Shown piece by piece: positions 4,281 to 13,798 of a stretch of 64,000 bases of DNA (positions are counted from its first letter, which is position 1; each line of letters opens with the position of its first letter). Both the position numbers and the translations under genes were made by a program. The notes beneath the pieces were generated by a model. That model was not told the origin of the DNA. It saw nothing but the letters and a program-made list of their open reading frames with translations, and ran no database searches. Source of the stretch: Fuerstiella marisgermanici (GTDB lineage Bacteria > Planctomycetota > Planctomycetia > Planctomycetales > Planctomycetaceae); assembly GCF_001983935.1 (NCBI RefSeq), contig NZ_CP017641.1, positions 4,464,001 through 4,528,000 on the forward strand, read 5' to 3'.

Positions 4281-5345
4281 GTGTCAACAATCGTCATCGA
4301 CAAACCCACAACCGCCACTATTCACGGCGCGAACGCTGCGCCAAACGGATGGAATGATTATCTGCAGAGCTGGGGGTACGACGGCTTCCACCTGCGCGCT
4401 GAGTGGGCGAACGTCTTCGAGTCGTCTCTTAGTCACCGTCCTCATTTCCTATGGGCAACTATTGATAACCGGATCGTTGGCGTGCTGCCGCTGATGTTCG
4501 TCGCCGGTCCAATCTTCGGCCGATTTCTGGCCAGCCAGCCGTACCTCAACACTGGCGGAGTCCTCGCAGATTCCGACACGATCGCAAAGACGTTGATTGA
4601 TCGAGCCGTCGACCTGGCAGACGAACTCGACGTCAAGCACCTCGAGCTTCGTCACGAACACTACCACGAACACCCACGCATGAATGCTTCCGCAACGGAA
4701 AAAGTTCACATGCGTTTAGCGCTGCCGGAAACATCCGAACAGCTATGGGACAGCCTGAAGTCGAAAGTCCGCAGCCAGATTCGCAAGCCGCTCAACAATT
4801 CGGAACTCACCCATGAGTTCGGTCGCCACGATGCATTGAATACGTTCTACGATATTTTCTGCCGCAACATGCGAGACCTCGGCACGCCCCCGTTTCCGAA
4901 GTCGCTGTTCAACCAGATGCTGAACCAATTCGGCGACGATGCAGAAATCTGTACCGTTCGCTTCAACGGTACACCGGTCTCGTCCGGCTTCCTGCTGCAC
5001 GGACCCGAAACAACTTTAATCCCCAGCGCCAGCGCACTCCGCGAATTCAATCGCACTAGCTGCAATATGCTGATGTACTGGCATGTGCTGGAACGAGCCA
5101 TCGAGCGTGGCCAGACGACGTTCGACTTCGGTCGCAGTTCCGTCGACGCGGGAACTCATAAGTTCAAAAAGCAGTGGGGCTCAGAAGAGTTCCCCGCTGT
5201 TTGGCAATACTACAGCCGCAAAGGAAACGTCACGGACGCTCGGCCCAACAGCGGCAAGTACGACCGCATGATCGCAACCTGGCAAAAACTCCCCGTCTGG
5301 CTCACCAAAATCATCGGCCCCAAAATCGTACGCGGCATCCCTTAG
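4281..5345 (+). CDS. FemAB-like GNAT-fold protein, PEP-CTERM/XrtA-associated type
   Basis: 354 residues, starting at GTG 4281 with AGGAACG upstream. The protein has the double-GNAT organisation of FemAB enzymes: an N-terminal acyltransferase-like half (WNDYLQSWGYDGFHLRAEW, GVLPLMFV) and a C-terminal half with KSKVRSQIRKPLNN, SSGFLLH and the conserved end FDFGRSSVDAGTHKFKKQWG. This last block is typical of the FemAB-like proteins found in exosortase/PEP-CTERM exopolysaccharide clusters (family knowledge). FemAB enzymes add amino acids to peptidoglycan precursors using aminoacyl-tRNA, but the EPS-cluster members have no proven substrate; aminoacylation or acylation of the polysaccharide made by the three upstream glycosyltransferases is an inference. 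The stop codon lies inside the first copy of an 89-bp tandem repeat. Confidence 0.85.
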   Translation: MSTIVIDKPTTATIHGANAAPNGWNDYLQSWGYDGFHLRAEWANVFESSLSHRPHFLWATIDNRIVGVLPLMFVAGPIFGRFLASQPYLNTGGVLADSDTIAKTLIDRAVDLADELDVKHLELRHEHYHEHPRMNASATEKVHMRLALPETSEQLWDSLKSKVRSQIRKPLNNSELTHEFGRHDALNTFYDIFCRNMRDLGTPPFPKSLFNQMLNQFGDDAEICTVRFNGTPVSSGFLLHGPETTLIPSASALREFNRTSCNMLMYWHVLERAIERGQTTFDFGRSSVDAGTHKFKKQWGSEEFPAVWQYYSRKGNVTDARPNSGKYDRMIATWQKLPVWLTKIIGPKIVRGIP

Positions 5346-5593
5346 GCGGGGACGGCCCCGCGGCCGATTGGCGTGGTGACCGGGTGACGGCGTGCCGACT
5401 GAAGCGCCGGCGGTGCTCCCGTTGGTCGCCGCAGGCGGGGACGGCCCCGCGGCCGATTGGCGTGGTGACCGGGTGACGGCGTGCCGACTGAAGCGCCGGC
5501 GGTGCTCCCGTTGGTCGCCGCAGGCGGGGACGGCCCCGCGGCCGATTGGCGTTGAGGACGGGTGACGGCTTGTTGACTGAAGCGCCGGCGGTG
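5344..5593. repeat. 89-bp GC-rich tandem repeat, about 2.8 copies
   Basis: Copies start at 5344, 5433 and 5522, giving an exact 89-bp period. The first two copies are virtually identical; the third diverges after about 31 bp and ends near 5593. Each unit opens with aggcggggacggccccgcgg, which contains a GC-rich near-palindrome. Because 89 is not a multiple of three and stops are rare at this composition, several meaningless long frames cross it on both strands. The first copy begins on the last two bases of the FemAB stop codon. Confidence 0.9.
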
Positions 5594-6130
5594 AATCTCT
5601 GGTTCTGTGTCCGATGAATCATCCGTATCGGAGCGGGCCTCGAGCTCGAGTTCCGCCATCGCCATCGCGTCTGGCGAAATACGGATCAGCAAATCGGAGC
5701 ACGATTCAAGCGAACGAAGTCCCTCTAACGAAGCCTTCAATGCATCGTCCGAAGTGACGCGTCCTCTTCGCGATTTCAGCGGCGATCGATTGCCGCCTCT
5801 CCCGTGGCGGTCGGTGAATAAATAGCCCGCAGGCTGGAATTTGGCGGTCCCGACGAACTGTTGTCGATGTAGCTTATCGCGCCGAAATATCTCACCACTT
5901 GCGGCAGGCGGAATGCCGTTGATGCGCCAAACAGCGTGTCGAGGCAAGTAAAAAGCGGGCCAGGCAACTCAAACGATCAGCTAACACGGGCACCAGACCA
6001 CCTCACCCGAACGCATCACCTAACGCCCCACCGCAATATTACTTTTACACTTGCCCGCAGTATTAACCAGGATATATTCGGCCGAGCGAGCGATTCAGGA
6101 CAAGACAATAATTGCATTTGGGGCGATGCG
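5594..6130. other. Intergenic region, possible dispersed-repeat remnant and weak promoter
   Basis: No convincing gene. On the minus strand about 5590-5950 stays open and gives a protein-like stretch (YFGAISYIDNSSSG, YSPTATGEAAIDRR), which reminds me of intergenic repeat families seen in Rhodopirellula-type genomes; this is memory only. Upstream of the patatin gene, ttgccc (6053-6058), a 16-bp spacer and tatatt (6075-6080) could form a weak sigma-70 promoter. Frames reaching from 5936 into the patatin gene are extensions, not a real start. Confidence 0.4.
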
Positions 6131-7869
6131 ATGAGTGAACAACCCAGTGAATGGGAACTGATCCGTGAAAGAAGGGCCGCCGCTTTTCCTGATAGCGGCG
6201 TCGCACCCGCAAAGGAATCACCACAGGCTGAACAGCGGCCTGACAATCTGGTTGGACTGGCTCTATCCGGCGGCGGAATACGGTCTGCCTTGTACAACGA
6301 CGGATTCCTGCAGGGGTTGTCTCACCGCGGTTTTCTGAGATATGTAGACTATATGGCGAGCGTCTCGGGTGGCGGCTACATTGCCGGCCACCTGACCGCT
6401 CAGGCAGACCCGCTGCCGGACGGAGCAAAGTCGCCACCAGACGAGAAGCCTGACGCAGCCCAATCCAACGCGAAAAAGTCGTTTCACGACGACCCGCACC
6501 GCTGGAAGCTGGGACGCGATCCGGACAACGGACAAATTCGCCAGGACAGGCTCACCGGAATCGGTGGCTATCTGAGCCGACCGCTGGATCTGCTACCGAA
6601 TTATCTCTGGTCGTGCGGATTCAATGCCGCGTTTTACCTGGGTCTTTCCGGCATCGTGGCGACGTTCATCGCACTGCTGTGGCGTTCGTTCGACACCATT
6701 GATTTCCGGTACTTGTACTTCAGTGTTCTAGGCCTGACAGCTGGAAACGAACTCACCGTAGCGTTTATTCCGGCCATGATTGTGCTGCTGGTGTATCTCG
6801 CGACAGGTGCCGTGTTCTGGACACTCAGATCTGCTGCCGGAGTAGCGGCATGGCGGACTCAGCGATCAAATTCAGGGGGTGCGACACAGCAAGAGCCGTC
6901 GAAGTGGCGGACGCAACTTCAGCGTTGGCATGTGGCGTGCAGAAAAATCGGCCTGGGATTGCTTGCAGTCGCACTGTTGGCGTCCGTGGCCGTATTTATC
7001 GGCAACGGCAAGACTCGGTTTCAGGCGAACTCACAGGACTTTTTCCTGAACCATTACGCGCAGGTTTTTGCCATCGCGGCGGCGGGCGTTCAGATCCTCG
7101 TGTTTCTTGGAAAGGATCGCCTGTTCCGATCAGAACAGCAGGAAGCCAAGAACTGGCTAAAACACGGCCAGCGCATGATCACGGCCGGACTCATTGTGTT
7201 AGCCGGATTTGCCATCGTTCACTGGATGGCGCGTGAAGACATTAGCCACTACACGCAAAGACGTGACCCGCATCTGGAAACTGGTGACGTCACGGACTGG
7301 TACGCTTTGCACGACCTTTTCGAATCCGATCGGGTCGCCGATCCTTCACGCCCAAAAGTTGAAACAGCGATCCGTAGCTTTTGGTTCGGCGAACACCTGA
7401 CTAGCCTTGTGGAGTACATGAAACTTATCTACGGGCCCGGCCACCTGGAAGCTGCCGACAACGTTCCTATTTCAGTGCGGCCGAAACGCAGTTACCTGGA
7501 ATCCATTGCTTCTCGCCGCGTGTGGTTAAAAAAGGAATTCGAAGACCGCCACGAGATCAACCCCGTGCTTCCGCAAGCCGTTGAAGCGTGGAATCTATGG
7601 CACCGGATCTACGGGGCCGCGTATGCCTACCACATCACTGTAATCCAGCCCTCGATCATTGATTCGTTGCGTGCCGAAGAGATGATTTCAGAACCCGGCG
7701 GCGTTCGCGAAACACTGCTCAGGCAACTGATGGCCTACAAGGCCACTCAAAAACGGCAGCAAGCCTTTTTGCGGAACTGGAATCGAACTCTGGAATCTCC
7801 AGCGTTCACAGCAAGATTGCTGGCAAGTCTGGAAACTAATGGCAGCGGCAGGAACGCAGAAAAACCTAA
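6131..7869 (+). pseudogene. Patatin-like phospholipase, 5' fragment (interrupted by IS1380)
   Basis: First third (579 codons) of a patatin-like serine lipase gene. Start is the ATG at 6131 (MSEQPSEWELIRERR). The oxyanion-hole motif GLALSGGGIRSALY lies at residues 42-55 and the nucleophile motif ASVSGGGYIAGH at 76-87, Ser79 being the expected nucleophile. Four or five hydrophobic segments follow (around 175-195, 220-245, 275-297, 313-330, 345-365), unusual for a patatin and suggesting membrane association. The IS1380 element enters at 7870, so the surviving frame runs on 28 bases to a stop at 7897 (SRDRG end) and lacks the catalytic Asp. It is continuous in frame with 9587-11416 and 12718-13798 once both insertions are removed (1549 residues). 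Confidence 0.9.
7866..7869. repeat. IS1380 target-site duplication, left copy (ctaa)
   Basis: The four bases ctaa directly outside the left terminal repeat recur at 9583-9586 outside the right one. Four- to five-base duplications are normal for the IS1380 family. Joining the flanks with one copy gives cct-aag-ggc-gaa, preserving the patatin frame. Confidence 0.85.
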
Positions 7870-8061
7870 CCCGGATGTCTCACGCGATCGGGGTTGAGTA
7901 GGCGGCGGTGGTAGAATTTCGTTGGCGTTGAGATCCTGGTATGAATCTGAGGCCCATTCGACCGAAATTGGGATCGTGGCTTCGTACATTTCCAGACGCG
8001 CGCAGCGGTGCGTCACCGATCTTCGAAGCCGGCTGAGGAATCTCATGTTGTCGCACTGAAA

Positions 8062-9489
8062 TCAGACCTGCATGACCTGCGGTCTGTGGCGGCGGAGATT
8101 AGCAAGGACTCGTTCGAACAGTGGCTGGTACGGATATGATTCGGAAAAGCTGATCACCACGCGCCGAACGCTCACCTGAATCTTCGTGCCGATCTTCAGC
8201 AGCTTCGAACGAATTGTGCCCGCCTGAGCGTTCTGCATCTCGGTCCCCGCCAGGCCGAATTCCCGCAGCACGTGGTGCAGCAAATACGCCATCGTCGAGA
8301 ACAGCAACCGCAGTTGATTCGAACGCATGTTGTGAGTGCTCGTGCGATCCGCGAACAGATAAAGCTGCTGTTCCTTGATCCGGTTTTCCATGTCGCCCCG
8401 CGCGCAGTAACGATCTTCGTACAGCATACGTGCGTCGACGCGTTCGAGCGAAAGACTGGTGACGACGAAACGCGAGTTGGCTCCTTTGCGAAGATGTTCG
8501 GCTTTGCCGATGACTCGGCGTTCGCATGACCATGTCTCCTTCGTGCGATACCGAAAATCTTTGAACACCCGAGCCGCTTCGCCCGTTGCTTCAAACTGAA
8601 CCTTCGCCTGCTGAAGTTCGCCCCCGATTGCCTTCACAAGACGCTTGTTCTTTGCCAGGCCAATGATGTAATCGACACGGTTTTTCTCGCACCAGGCGAG
8701 AATATTGTCGCGACAAAAACCACCGTCCGCTCGAACGATCATCCGAACGTTCGGCCATGCGGCTCGCAGCCTGGGAACGATGCGTTCGAGTTCTTTCACC
8801 GTTCCCGCACAGCCGTCAATGTTTGAAGGACGCAGCACGGCGCCGAGCGGCCAGCCGCCGCAGAACGTATACAACGGCAGAAAGCAGTAGCTTTTGTAGT
8901 AGCCGTGGAAAAATTTCCCGAGCTGATCGCCGTGCACCGGATCATCCGTGGCGTCGAGATCAAGCACGAGTTCCGTCGGCACACCTTGCTTGCTTCGCAT
9001 GCGAATGAAAACATCGACCAGAGTATCCTGAAGTGTGGAAACACTGGCGACGATCTTTTTGTAGCGACTGTTTTTGGTCGCCCCAACCGGCGTGAGTTCC
9101 AACCGATTGAGCGTGCTCTTCCCGGCCAGCGGAACACCTTTGCTGCATTCGGCAGCACGATCCTGTCCGGTGATATCTCGTCGCCCGCACATCAGAGCCA
9201 GCAGAGGATCATGTCGCAACTGCTCGTGATCGTTCAGATCTTCATAGCCCAGAGCGATTCCCATGACTCGCTGCCGCAACAGTTCTTCGACTGAGAACTC
9301 ACTGTGCTCACTTCGATGATCCGTAAAGCTCGCCGTGAACGATCGAAGGATACCAAACCGCTCTTCGACTTCCCGCAACAACAACCCGCCACCATCTGAC
9401 GTGATCTTTCCACCATCAAACGCGGCACAAACTTCTCGCCGACCGTGACCCTCGAATAACAACTTCTCTCTGCTACACTCTGTCACCAC
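8062..9489 (-). CDS. IS1380-family transposase
   Basis: 475-residue DDE transposase, full length for the family with no frameshift. The Asp residues are in DLDATDDP (about 175-182) and RADGGFCRDN (about 258-267), the Glu in YCARGDMENRIKE (about 365-377); these match the IS1380 signature. The start is GTG at 9489 (or the adjacent GTG at 9486). The start lies inside one arm of a 14-bp perfect inverted repeat (9487-9500 with 9545-9558), which would hide it in transcripts entering from outside. The protein should catalyse excision and integration of the element; it appears functional. Confidence 0.95.
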   Translation of the reverse strand: MVTECSREKLLFEGHGRREVCAAFDGGKITSDGGGLLLREVEERFGILRSFTASFTDHRSEHSEFSVEELLRQRVMGIALGYEDLNDHEQLRHDPLLALMCGRRDITGQDRAAECSKGVPLAGKSTLNRLELTPVGATKNSRYKKIVASVSTLQDTLVDVFIRMRSKQGVPTELVLDLDATDDPVHGDQLGKFFHGYYKSYCFLPLYTFCGGWPLGAVLRPSNIDGCAGTVKELERIVPRLRAAWPNVRMIVRADGGFCRDNILAWCEKNRVDYIIGLAKNKRLVKAIGGELQQAKVQFEATGEAARVFKDFRYRTKETWSCERRVIGKAEHLRKGANSRFVVTSLSLERVDARMLYEDRYCARGDMENRIKEQQLYLFADRTSTHNMRSNQLRLLFSTMAYLLHHVLREFGLAGTEMQNAQAGTIRSKLLKIGTKIQVSVRRVVISFSESYPYQPLFERVLANLRRHRPQVMQV

Positions 9490-9558
9490 AAAACCGCCTC
9501 CTGATGTTGACGTAAATCCTTCTCACAAAAGACTTACGCACGCAGAGGCGGTTTTGTG
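9487..9558 (-). promoter_or_regulatory. Inverted repeat masking the IS1380 transposase start
   Basis: cacaaaaccgcctc (9487-9500) and gaggcggttttgtg (9545-9558) are perfectly complementary over 14 bases with a 44-base spacer. In minus-strand RNA the GTG start (9489-9487) is in the second arm. Read-through transcripts would contain both arms and mask the start; a transcript beginning inside the spacer would not. Such protection from read-through is established for IS10 and IS50; for this element it is inferred. Confidence 0.6.
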
Positions 9559-9586
9559 CATTCTCTGTGTGAGATTTCCGGGCTAA

Positions 9587-11416
9587 GGGCGAAGCAGAGC
9601 CCTCTCAAGCAGGCACGGCACTCAGCATTCGGCTCGGTGACCGACTAACAAGTCTGCTGAATTCGGACAAATTCGGTCTTAATTCGCGCGCGAAAAAGAG
9701 TCTGATCACAGCGGCCCGGCGTATTGAAACACTCAAGTCGCCAAACGCTGCTGGCACGACAAAGAACGCTGCCACCACAGATACCGTCAGCCAGCAACGT
9801 GCCTTTGCCGATCTAAATCGGCGTTTGTTGGAAGCTCTGTTTCCATCGGCTATCCAAAGCATGGACGTTCCAAGCACGCACGTCGTCCCACCGTACGATC
9901 GATTGGCAAGATGGGAATGGCTTGGTTGGTGGATGCTGCTGGCCCTGATCGGCGCCATGGCCAGTGCCATCCGTTACGAGCTAAGTGAAGTGTCTATCAA
10001 TCCGGTGTCGCTGAGTGCCGTGTACCGGTTCTATCGAGAACAACTGGGGGCCAATTTTCTGACCAACACTCACACACTGGGAAATGTGGCCGCCGTGAAA
10101 TTGCCGGACCTGCGACCAACAGCAGACGGACTGCCGTACCCGTTGATTCTTGCAAGTTCAATGGAACCGGTGACCGTGAACGGATGCTATCGGGTTCATG
10201 CCGAACCGTTTGTCTTCAGCCCACTGTACAGTGGCAATTTTGATAGCAGCATCGACCAGGGCTGGCGAACTCCTGAAACATCGAAGCCCACCGTCGGCCC
10301 TGTCAGTAGCCGAGACGTGACTCTACCAGGCGGGGCCACTGTAACGCTTGCCGATACCATTACGATTTCCGGAGCGGCTGTTACGCCGTTGATGACTGGA
10401 AACCGTTGCCTGTCGGTGCTGTTAGACTTCTTCAACACAGGGCTTGGCCAGCGAGTCTGTCGGAAAGAGCAGTCCCCCCAACCGGAGTCGGCTCAAACGC
10501 AAACGAACGGAACTCACGTTCCAGATCAGCGATTGTCAGAACGCGCAAGTGCCTTGTTGGTCGCGGCGAGCGGCATCGCGATCGCCATTTGGCTGCTTAG
10601 CCCGGGCGAATGGACTTCGGCGATTCCACTTCTTTGCCTTGCCGGGTTAGTGGCTATCAGCCTGAAAAACAAATCGGGCTCTGCCTACCTCCTCAGCTCC
10701 CTGATCCGTCCGCAGGCACGTTCTGCCAAAGACAACGGGAGAGCGTTGGAGCCTGGTGATTCAGTATATGTTGCTGACGGCGGCTTCACAGATTATCTGG
10801 GCGTGACACCGCTGCTTCGACGCCGGTGTGAGTTGATCGTCGTCAGCGATGCCGGCGCCAATTTAGGGACCGATCCGCTTGGAACACTTGCTCGCATGTG
10901 CGAATCGGCTGCGTCCAGCATGGGCGTACGGTTTCTGGATCTGGACCATGAAGCGCCCATCGATTTTGGTCGGCTGAAACAGGACGACCAGCGTCTGGTT
11001 CATCAGCCCTATCTGTGTATGCGAGTTCGCTATCCGGAGGATAACACGCCTGACGGATTGCTGTTCTACTGTCAAATGGCCATCACGGAACGTGACCCGA
11101 TTGAAATTCGCCAGATTCGCAATCGTTTTCCGTCGTTTCCGGATGAGCCTACCAGCAATCAGTTTTATACGGACGAACAGGTATCTGCGTATGGATCCCT
11201 GGGCCATCATATTGCGAGTCAGTTGTGTCGCGAGCTGGAACGGTGGGACTTCGCAAGCCACGACAATTTACCCGCTGCGGTTCAAACACCGGCGGCGAAC
11301 ACAACGCAAAATGCTTCAGCTCACCTGGATACAAGGCCGGCGGCAGGGGGCACAATGACGCCACGCTGCGTCAAGGTTCATTCATTCCAGGGCCGCAGAG
11401 CGGCGGACTACGTTGC
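9587..11416 (+). pseudogene. Patatin-like phospholipase, middle fragment
   Basis: Residues 580-1189 of the ancestral patatin protein. The frame is open from 9573 to a chimeric stop at 11435, but everything before 9583 and after 11416 is insertion-sequence DNA. Two hydrophobic segments are visible (WLGWWMLLALIGAMASAI and the region around SGIAIAIWLL / AIPLLCLAGLVAI). The catalytic Asp motif is present: SVYVADGGFTDYLGVTPLL, followed by RRCELIVVSDAGAN. The nucleophile Ser is on the other fragment, so neither piece alone can be an active patatin. An internal TTG at 9825 could start a product but no ribosome site supports it. Confidence 0.88.
11407..11416. repeat. ISAs1 target-site duplication, left copy
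   Basis: actacgttgc immediately outside the left end of the element; identical to 12708-12717 outside the right end. Confidence 0.95.
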
Positions 11417-12707
11417 CAGGGCCAGCGCATACTAAGTTGTTTTGCCGGTAAGGATTTGCATCAAATAGTCAATGTTCCATCCGGCCATTCTTCTTTTCAT
11501 GACGTTGCTTTGTTTGCCAGGATGTTTCTTGATGAGGCTGAGTGTGAGTCGTCTGAGCCATGACAAATTGTTCGCGAAGATTCGGTTTCGGACTCGACTC
11601 TCATCCTCGCGGTAGGTCATGTCGAGACTCCAGTGCAGCGTGTTTTCTATGGCCCAGTGACCACGAACCGTTGTTGCGAACAGCTCGCCTTTGCGACGCA
11701 GACTGCTGATGTAGTAGCGAACGTCAGAATGATGAATGCCGTCCTGCTCGTACATTCGGATCGCCGTTCCGATGGTCTTGAGTCCGGCCCATTTGTGGCC
11801 CACGTCAAAATCGACAGGCACGGTCGCCTGATAGTAGATTCTCTGTTCCTGCCGACCGTGTCCCTTCTCTGTTTCTTCATAGCGACTGACGGGATAGCGA
11901 GCGAAGTCATCCTCCAGGTGATCGAGAAAAAACTTCTGCACGACCTCATAGAGTTTCGGTTGGTTGCCTTTCAGGGCTAACACATAGTCTGCATTGCCAG
12001 ACACGATCTGCTGCGCAATGTTTTTTTGACAACCCGCTGCGTCAATCGTAATGATCGCCTCATCGATATTGATTTCGTTCAGTAATTTCGGGATCGCGGT
12101 GATCTCGTTCGACTTCTCTTCCGTCGCCACCTGTCCCAGAGAAATCCCCTGATCAGAAGCCCACGCACTCACGATGAACAACGCACCCAGCCCATTCTTT
12201 TTGTCATGTGATCGACGGAGTGCTTTGCCATCAATCGCAATCTGTTTTCTGTAGCCTTCTTTCTGTTCGTCGGAAAGTCCTTCCAGCGATTCAATCCATT
12301 GCACGAAGCACGCTTGAAAGTCGTTCGGCTTCAGGAGAGAAAGGACGCGCCGGTACGTATCTTTTTTCGGAATGCCATGCGGAAGTGCCAGGTGTTTCTG
12401 CAGGCCATCGGCATTCAGTCGCGCCCATTCCGCAATCGCACTGGGGCCGTCGGCGTTGGCCAGCACTCCGCAAATGGCGATCACAATCACATCACCAAGC
12501 AGATGCAGACGATTGATGTTGGAACGCGGGTCTTTCAATTGATCAAAGTAATGAACAATGTTTCCTGTCAGCTCCTGGGTGACCGCCAGTTCAACTGTCG
12601 ACATCTCTTGTCCTCTCCTCGTGAAGTCCGATGTTACGACACGAAAAGACTAACCAATACTCACTTGTCGCGCCAGCCTAAATTGCCCAAAGTGCGCGCT
12701 GGCCCTG
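11417..12707 (-). mobile_element. ISAs1-family insertion sequence, complete (1291 bp)
   Basis: Left end cagggccagcgcatac (11417-11432); the complement of the right end reads cagggccagcgcgcac, 14 of 16 identical. The target duplication actacgttgc is found at 11407-11416 and 12708-12717, a 10-bp length usual for ISAs1. The single transposase gene is on the minus strand, again antisense to the patatin gene. Removing the element and one duplication rejoins gac-tac-gtt-gcc-gct-gta in frame. All parts are intact, so insertion is recent. Confidence 0.95.
11432..12604 (-). CDS. ISAs1-family transposase
   Basis: 390-residue DDE transposase of the ISAs1 group, full length. It opens with the N-terminal domain LTGNIVHYFDQLKDPRSNIN (residues 12-31), the helix LLGDVIVIAICGVLANADG, then IAIDGKALRRSHD (first Asp), ITIDAAGCQKNIAQQIV with DYVLALKGNQP (second Asp region), and GHWAIENTLHWSLDMTYREDESR containing the Glu. 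Start ATG at 12604. It fills almost the whole element, ending 15 bp from the left terminus. No frameshift is visible, so the element is probably active. Confidence 0.96.
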   Translation of the reverse strand: MSTVELAVTQELTGNIVHYFDQLKDPRSNINRLHLLGDVIVIAICGVLANADGPSAIAEWARLNADGLQKHLALPHGIPKKDTYRRVLSLLKPNDFQACFVQWIESLEGLSDEQKEGYRKQIAIDGKALRRSHDKKNGLGALFIVSAWASDQGISLGQVATEEKSNEITAIPKLLNEINIDEAIITIDAAGCQKNIAQQIVSGNADYVLALKGNQPKLYEVVQKFFLDHLEDDFARYPVSRYEETEKGHGRQEQRIYYQATVPVDFDVGHKWAGLKTIGTAIRMYEQDGIHHSDVRYYISSLRRKGELFATTVRGHWAIENTLHWSLDMTYREDESRVRNRIFANNLSWLRRLTLSLIKKHPGKQSNVMKRRMAGWNIDYLMQILTGKTT

Positions 12708-12717
12708 ACTACGTTGC

Positions 12718-13798
12718 CGCTGTAAAATCGGACTACGGTGTAAGACCACATCACCAAACGGAGGCCGCCAACACTCGTAACGGGCTTCCACTGTTCGATG
12801 TCTTAAACGAACGTTTGCTGGTGGCATATCGTCTCACGTGTCATGAAGAAATTACGTACCGCGAGAACGACATTTTCAGTGAAGCAGTCTGGCCAACAAC
12901 CACATACGCGTTTCCTCAATTCGCGGATCGCGTAAAAAGCCTGAAGCCATCTCAGCAGAATCGCTGGAGCATCGCACGTGGATGGTTGTCGAATTTCCAA
13001 CAAGGCGCCGACATTCGCAGTGCGTATCGAAAGGCTGTTCTGGAAGACATCAACGCCATGAACGTCGGCGCAGGTAGCTTTTCGGCGCGGCTATGGTTCG
13101 CGATTAGGGACTTGCGATCGTCGGGCGGCGAACTGCAGACGCACCATGATGAAGATAGTCAAGCATGGATGGCCGCGCACTTGACAACGATTGCAACGGC
13201 ATGCCATGAAGTTCACCGAGGGCGGCCGCACGCGACATTTCAGATTGGCGGACGAGAAAAACTTGTGGAACTCTGCAGCCGCATGGCCTCCGTTATCGTT
13301 GAAGAAACGCAGAACGGAATCGTGGGAGGCCAGCCAGCCAGCGTCGATCGCCACTGTCCTGTACGGAAGGCGATGGATAGGATTACGGCCGAACTCACGG
13401 AACTCGAGCGGTCAATATTTCAGGGTGGGCAACACGTTACCACAATTTCATTCGCCCAGTGCCTGTCCGCAATGTGGGGACGGATCGAACGGGCTGACAG
13501 AAAATTTGCAGAACTGACCGACGAAGAGATTAATCAGGCAAGAACTGCTCTGGCATTTGAAGGTGCGGATGCGACTCGCCCGGGCAGATCACCAATGGGC
13601 CAGGAGTCGCTGATGATGAGCCTGCGCAAACGACTGGACAGGGGACTTCGTGAAATGGAGCCAGAGGAAATCCTGCAGGCACTTGTTCAGTCGTGGTACT
13701 GGGGCTACATCAACGACGACGTCAGGGAATGGATCGATGCGGTCGATCATGCGGGATCTGCATCGCATGCAGAACGGGCTTCTGAATGGCCGGTTTAG
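12718..13798 (+). pseudogene. Patatin-like phospholipase, 3' fragment
   Basis: C-terminal 360 residues of the ancestral protein (AAVKSDYGVRPHHQTEAANT to RASEWPV), ending at the original stop at 13798. The same frame stays open upstream through the ISAs1 element to 12299, but that stretch is merely antisense to the transposase. No domain is recognised; the sequence is soluble-looking, with several helical stretches (ELTELERSIF, DRKFAELTDEEINQARTAL). It has no start of its own, so it is probably not expressed. Confidence 0.85.

Follow-up and report, generated by a model that had tools for sequence, protein, structure and literature searches.

Positions 6131 to 13798 of a stretch of Fuerstiella marisgermanici DNA (assembly GCF_001983935.1, contig NZ_CP017641.1, positions 4,464,001 to 4,528,000; 64,000 nucleotides, hereafter the window) contain a single large patatin-like gene that is split by two intact, simple insertions, one of the IS1380 family and one of the ISAs1 family. 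The locus is very probably a recent pseudogene, in which a dispensable and patchily distributed gene for a membrane patatin-like protein was silenced by two independent, unrelated insertions that fell into the same gene by chance. The features of the locus are as follows, L124 being an uninterrupted homologous locus described below.

6131..7867, plus strand: piece 1 of the broken gene, 579 codons, with SGGGIR, SVSGGG (Ser 79) and five hydrophobic segments; homologous to L124 residues 69-532
7866..7869, no strand: CTAA, left copy of the 4-base target duplication
7870..9582, minus strand: IS1380-family element, 1713 bases, with two other identical copies in the genome
8062..9489, minus strand: IS1380 transposase, 475 amino acids, uninterrupted (PF13701, 484.8 bits)
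9583..9586, no strand: CTAA, right copy
9588..11414, plus strand: piece 2, 609 codons, with DGGF (presumed catalytic Asp 397 of the piece); homologous to L124 residues 735-1190
11407..11416, no strand: ACTACGTTGC, left copy of the 10-base target duplication
11417..12707, minus strand: ISAs1-family element, 1291 bases, one of 30 near-identical copies
11432..12604, minus strand: ISAs1 transposase, 390 amino acids, uninterrupted (PF13808, 92.0 bits, and PF01609, 59.9 bits)
12708..12717, no strand: ACTACGTTGC, right copy
12719..13798, plus strand: piece 3, 359 codons (12719-13795) followed by a stop, the C-terminal region; homologous to L124 residues 1242-1545

The initial annotation of this DNA had given coordinates for both elements and their duplications and had claimed a stop-free joined frame of 1549 codons with no other damage. 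Every one of the coordinates agreed with the sequence, and the phases agreed at both joints (579 + 1 + 609 + 1 + 359 codons). All three pieces were stop-free, and in pieces 2 and 3 only one of the three frames was open to the end, which was the frame predicted by the join. At the first joint the joined frame ran over 665 + 616 codons (no shifted control at this joint), and at the second over 614 + 360 codons, the shorter side falling to at most 90 and at most 20 codons when the join was shifted by 1 and 2 bases. The absence of other damage held for stops and frameshifts, the classes that can be judged, and does not extend to missense changes. The start at ATG 6131 was a choice, as the frame stays open further upstream to GTG 5936. 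An assembly artefact was rejected, since a misassembly would not be expected to create a target duplication at each of the two elements.

Homologues spanning the pieces were sought with the three pieces as separate queries. At L124, one uninterrupted frame of 1626 codons matched pieces 1, 2 and 3 in order, with 36% identity over 488 columns (E 8e-79), 37% over 505 columns (E 3e-81) and 28% over 306 columns (E 2e-24), respectively, the E-values being calculated for a database made up of that locus's 19 frames. Between pieces 1 and 2, 203 residues on the side of the window and 202 in L124 were left unmatched, and between pieces 2 and 3, 79 and 51 residues, respectively. Piece 1 matched 55 places in 40 of the 170 genomes of the order, the window's own genome and place included. 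From the 54 other places, 27 were fetched with full surroundings, 20 of them chosen mainly for long frames and 7 more for short frames. In 17 of the 20 loci, a single open frame held the matches to pieces 1 and 2 in their proper order, and in the remaining 3 the frame ran into the contig end; two of the 20 were paralogues in the window's own genome.

Piece 3 was much rarer. No match to it turned up among the 20 loci chosen mainly for long frames (best E 0.14) or in the remaining 169 genomes of the order. When 392 genomes sampled from the phylum were searched, with at most 5 candidates scored per genome, 7 had matches at E 0.01, one of them being the window's own genome; five of these matches were weak (best E 7e-4 to 0.003) and one, in the genome that holds L124 (G429), was convincing (E 3e-21). 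A contig search with piece 1 as a single sequence found nothing, and one with piece 2 aligned to its counterpart in L124 found one locus, L141, taken as the same contig as L124. If three separate genes lay here with transposase genes between them, the lack of piece 3 from the 169 other genomes, and from the 20 loci at E <0.1, would be accounted for; such an arrangement can hardly be credited and was rejected, as L124 joins all three pieces in one frame and both the target duplications and the frame phase fit at both joints.

The IS1380-family element was present in 3 identical copies in the 8.9-Mb genome. Target duplications in this family have 4-5 bases, and those of the three copies (CTAA, CTAG and TTAG) all had 4. 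Its ends are imperfect inverted repeats, CCCGGATGTCTCAC and CCCGGAAATCTCAC (CCCGGA..TCTCAC). With a transposase matching PF13701, which we take as the marker of the IS1380 type, a length of 1713 bases, imperfect terminal repeats and a short duplication, it resembles the members of that family. In contrast to the 4 bases found here, IS1247 is listed with a 5-base duplication in Table 2 of PMC3281130.

The ISAs1-family element carried the inverted repeat CAGGGCCAGCGC on both ends. At least 30 near-identical copies were found in the genome among the best 40 of 58 candidates, and a separate search in which all 73 candidates (73/73) were scored gave the same 30 places. The other 29 copies differed from that of the window by 1-3 bases, and the window's copy had a one-base variant in common with a single other copy, L076. 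Exact duplications of 9 or 10 bases flanked 25 of the 30 copies, one more had a duplication with a mismatch, and none was found in 4; duplications of 8-10 bases are usual for the ISAs1 family. The pair of DDE_Tnp_1_assoc (PF13808) and DDE_Tnp_1 (PF01609), which we take to mark ISAs1, was present in the transposase, and the CAGGGCC... ends, the 9- or 10-base duplications and the high copy number are likewise shared with the family. The element is a planctomycete member, its transposase being about 46% identical to that of a second ISAs1-like element of the same genome. For 11 of the 30 copies the joined flanks were open over 100 codons or more on both sides, whereas shifted joins reached this in 1/30 and 0/30, so that breaking genes is common for ISAs1 in this genome. 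The observation that both transposases run antisense to the host gene was correct for this locus, where both lie on the minus strand, but did not hold as a rule: among the 11 clearly intragenic ISAs1 copies, 4 have the transposase antisense to the frame that they break and 7 have it in the sense direction. PMC8763236 mentions a high ISAs1 copy number in Acaryochloris marina CCMEE 5410 that is not found in its sister strain, and the element named in the activity section of that paper is ISAm1.

The ISAs1 copies at L070, L096, L073 and L082 likewise broke large frames, of 909 to at least 1799 codons once the flanks are joined. At L074, which counts among the 11 copies breaking frames, an ISAs1 copy without a detected duplication lay between two rve-type transposase genes of opposite orientation about 3 kb apart, an arrangement that is perhaps nested or composite.

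The host protein is probably a lipase or phospholipase, judging from its motifs. Piece 1 contained the oxyanion-hole motif SGGGIR and the nucleophile-like SVSGGG, and piece 2 contained DGGF, a DGG-type Asp motif; the roles of these motifs as patatin catalytic residues are assumed from known patatins. The motifs resemble those of the patatin-like phospholipases of PF01734, whereas about 900 residues with hydrophobic segments lie between the presumed Ser and Asp here, the profile is matched only in part, and there is a C-terminal region for which a Pfam scan of the frame 12299-13798, which contains piece 3, gave no match. The distance from presumed Ser to presumed Asp was 898 residues in the protein of the window and 893 in L124. 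By simple hydropathy, piece 1 has five membrane segments and piece 2 has two; L124 has eight, every one of them located between its two motifs. Piece 1 scored 24.7 bits against PF01734, under the curated cut-off of 27.7, with the first 58 of 191 profile positions only; the cut-off was passed by 2 of 6 full-length relatives (L056 with 36.6 and L057 with 32.8). Among 18 relatives examined by regular expression, 17 had the oxyanion motif and 16 the Asp motif; the nucleophile motif turned up in only 4. AlphaFold models from two-row alignments were too poor to use (mean pLDDT 34.1 for piece 3 and 37.7 for piece 1).

It is a tentative suggestion that the host protein is a member of an undescribed planctomycete family of membrane proteins of about 1200-1650 residues, in which the patatin domain is split by several hundred residues with transmembrane segments and the Ser and Asp halves might meet across the membrane module; such genes would be gained and lost quickly, and the copy here may have been caught being lost. 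Among the paper titles listed for planctomycete or transmembrane patatins, none names such a family. Both elements are of ordinary kinds and the finding as such is ordinary genome biology; the possible larger interest lies beyond the insertions, in the family of the host protein, which occurs widely across the order.

On the pseudogene reading, each element would have entered through an ordinary DDE transposition event that duplicated the target in the usual way. Insertion sequences, especially ISAs1, appear to have multiplied recently in this genome. The IS1380 element lies between the presumed Ser and Asp, and the first product would end about 9 residues past the break. By separating the presumed catalytic Ser from the Asp, the IS1380 element alone should abolish activity, and the ISAs1 element would cut off the C-terminal 360 codons. 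After the first silencing insertion, the second would be neutral. The gene looks dispensable, as no close copy was found in seven congeners, where piece 1 had no match in 5 and weak matches in 2 (E 3e-13 and 5e-4), and as the same genome has two long uninterrupted patatin-like paralogues in which the oxyanion motif and the Asp motif follow each other as they do here (L061:5085-9026, 1314 codons, and L062:5569-9177, 1203 codons).

Both insertions are probably recent, in agreement with the initial annotation, the IS1380 copies being identical and the ISAs1 copies only 1-3 bases apart. An allele without the insertions was sought in the congeners and was not found, several of the stretches being short. 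The upstream acetyltransferase gene was found in 4 of the 7 congeners and the downstream amidohydrolase gene in 5 of the 7. The two neighbours side by side, or a patatin gene near either, were not seen in the congener stretches fetched; of nine such neighbour stretches, at least 4 end at a contig end within 5 kb (L113, L116, L136 and L137).

Genome matches over the cut-off were obtained for DDE_Tnp_1 (64), rve (26) and Transposase_20 (6). A set of 89 elements was counted, made up of 64 of 65 DDE_Tnp_1 matches (one below cut-off dropped) and 25 of 29 rve matches (the four dropped being three under the cut-off and one interrupted by an internal stop); the six Transposase_20 matches and other families lie outside this set. 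In a rough uniform model, 0.1-0.8 doubly hit genes were expected for 64-89 insertions (0.2-0.8 at 89), with a chance of 0.10-0.57 of at least one, given gene lengths from the window only, with the coding fraction assumed to be 85% and the tolerated fraction assumed to be 0.5 or 1.0. As the genome is rich in recently active insertion sequences, the double hit needs no special explanation. The earlier proposal of selection for loss or a preferred target was thus not borne out, given this chance and the lack of an ISAs1 consensus described below; either is possible, and neither is needed for the double hit. The locus offers a clear case of a gene lost to insertion sequences, with intact elements, no later stop or frameshift and an uninterrupted homologue showing the former frame, and it cautions that a double hit does not amount to selection when a genome holds about a hundred insertion sequences.

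Several observations weigh against the pseudogene reading. The sole convincing homologue holding piece 3, L124, is one contig of a metagenome-assembled genome. The tail of piece 1, the head and tail of piece 2 and the head of piece 3 did not align with the L124 linkers above shuffled controls, so that the L124 homology brackets both joints and does not run through them. The initial annotation had named an uninterrupted homologue failing to align across the joints as evidence against a single gene; when this was put to the test, the uninterrupted L124 frame favoured one gene, with the joint residues in unconserved linkers. Recency is judged from intact frames and near-identical copies. Long frames were the main criterion in the choice of the 20 loci, and among the 7 places picked for short frames some relatives appeared broken, so that decay may be commoner than 17/20 suggests: the N- and C-terminal halves lay in different frames at L147 (G053) and L148 (G021), at L143 (congener G017) a stop codon lay inside the part that aligns with a paralogue, and the halves were in the wrong order at L146. 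L144 had an N-terminal match only, and L142 and L145 had no match at E 1e-6. The broken relatives fit a family that is often lost and, coming from draft genomes, may represent decay or assembly error. Given one hit, the chance of another counted element in the same 4.65-kb gene is only 0.03-0.045. With the rve elements added (89 in all), 10 pairs lay within 3.5 kb of each other against 3.0 expected (P 0.003), so that the uniform model is inexact and some regions are more permissive; nine pairs other than the present one lay within that distance, some of them inside triplets. Weak selection or a locally permissive region may therefore have had a part.

Under selection for loss, inactivation of the lipase would have been advantageous and the two elements would mark repeated selection. 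Two independent hits in one gene with so low a conditional chance would be expected from this, as would the broken relatives at L147, L148 and L143. Such selection is nevertheless improbable. The genome-wide expectation already allows for a doubly hit gene, the broken relatives are in drafts with possible assembly errors and fit dispensability equally well, and the shared open frame of pieces 1 and 2 in most of the loci picked for long frames argues against it. One insertion would also suffice to inactivate the gene, so that selection for loss could not explain both hits in the same lineage.

A preferred target or permissive region, in which the local DNA or chromosome context attracts insertion sequences, is conceivable, though unlikely. 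It is consistent with moderate clustering in the genome (the 89 elements formed 19 pairs within 8 kb, where 6.8 would be expected), with the frames after the upstream neighbour in four congeners, which look different from each other and from the patatin gene, and with the likeness of the three IS1380 duplications. However, the YTAR tetramer is too common to mark this gene, and the 64 DDE_Tnp_1 elements taken alone showed no significant clustering (P 0.23), with 3 pairs within 3.5 kb where 1.6 would be expected. No significant consensus beyond composition emerged from the 19 ten-base duplications of ISAs1 (P 0.12), and sequence-specific targeting by ISAs1 was accordingly rejected.

The initial annotation had also described both insertions as reversible on paper. 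Removal of the elements does restore an open frame, which would suit a switch turning the gene on and off by precise excision; as a special trait this did not stand, because any simple insertion with a target duplication behaves in the same way, and the flanks of 10 other ISAs1 copies also join into frames of 100 codons or more on both sides. Such elements rarely excise precisely, and a reversible switch is most improbable here.

Upstream of the gene, three tandem copies of a G+C-rich repeat of 89 bases were present at 5344-5610, starting from the end of the acetyltransferase gene. An Rfam scan of the window gave no family match, and the repeat folded no better than shuffled sequences (z -1.3 and -0.6). 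Among the best 40 of 118 candidates in the genome search, it had at least 58 matches at 73-100% identity, these three included, many of them in small clusters.

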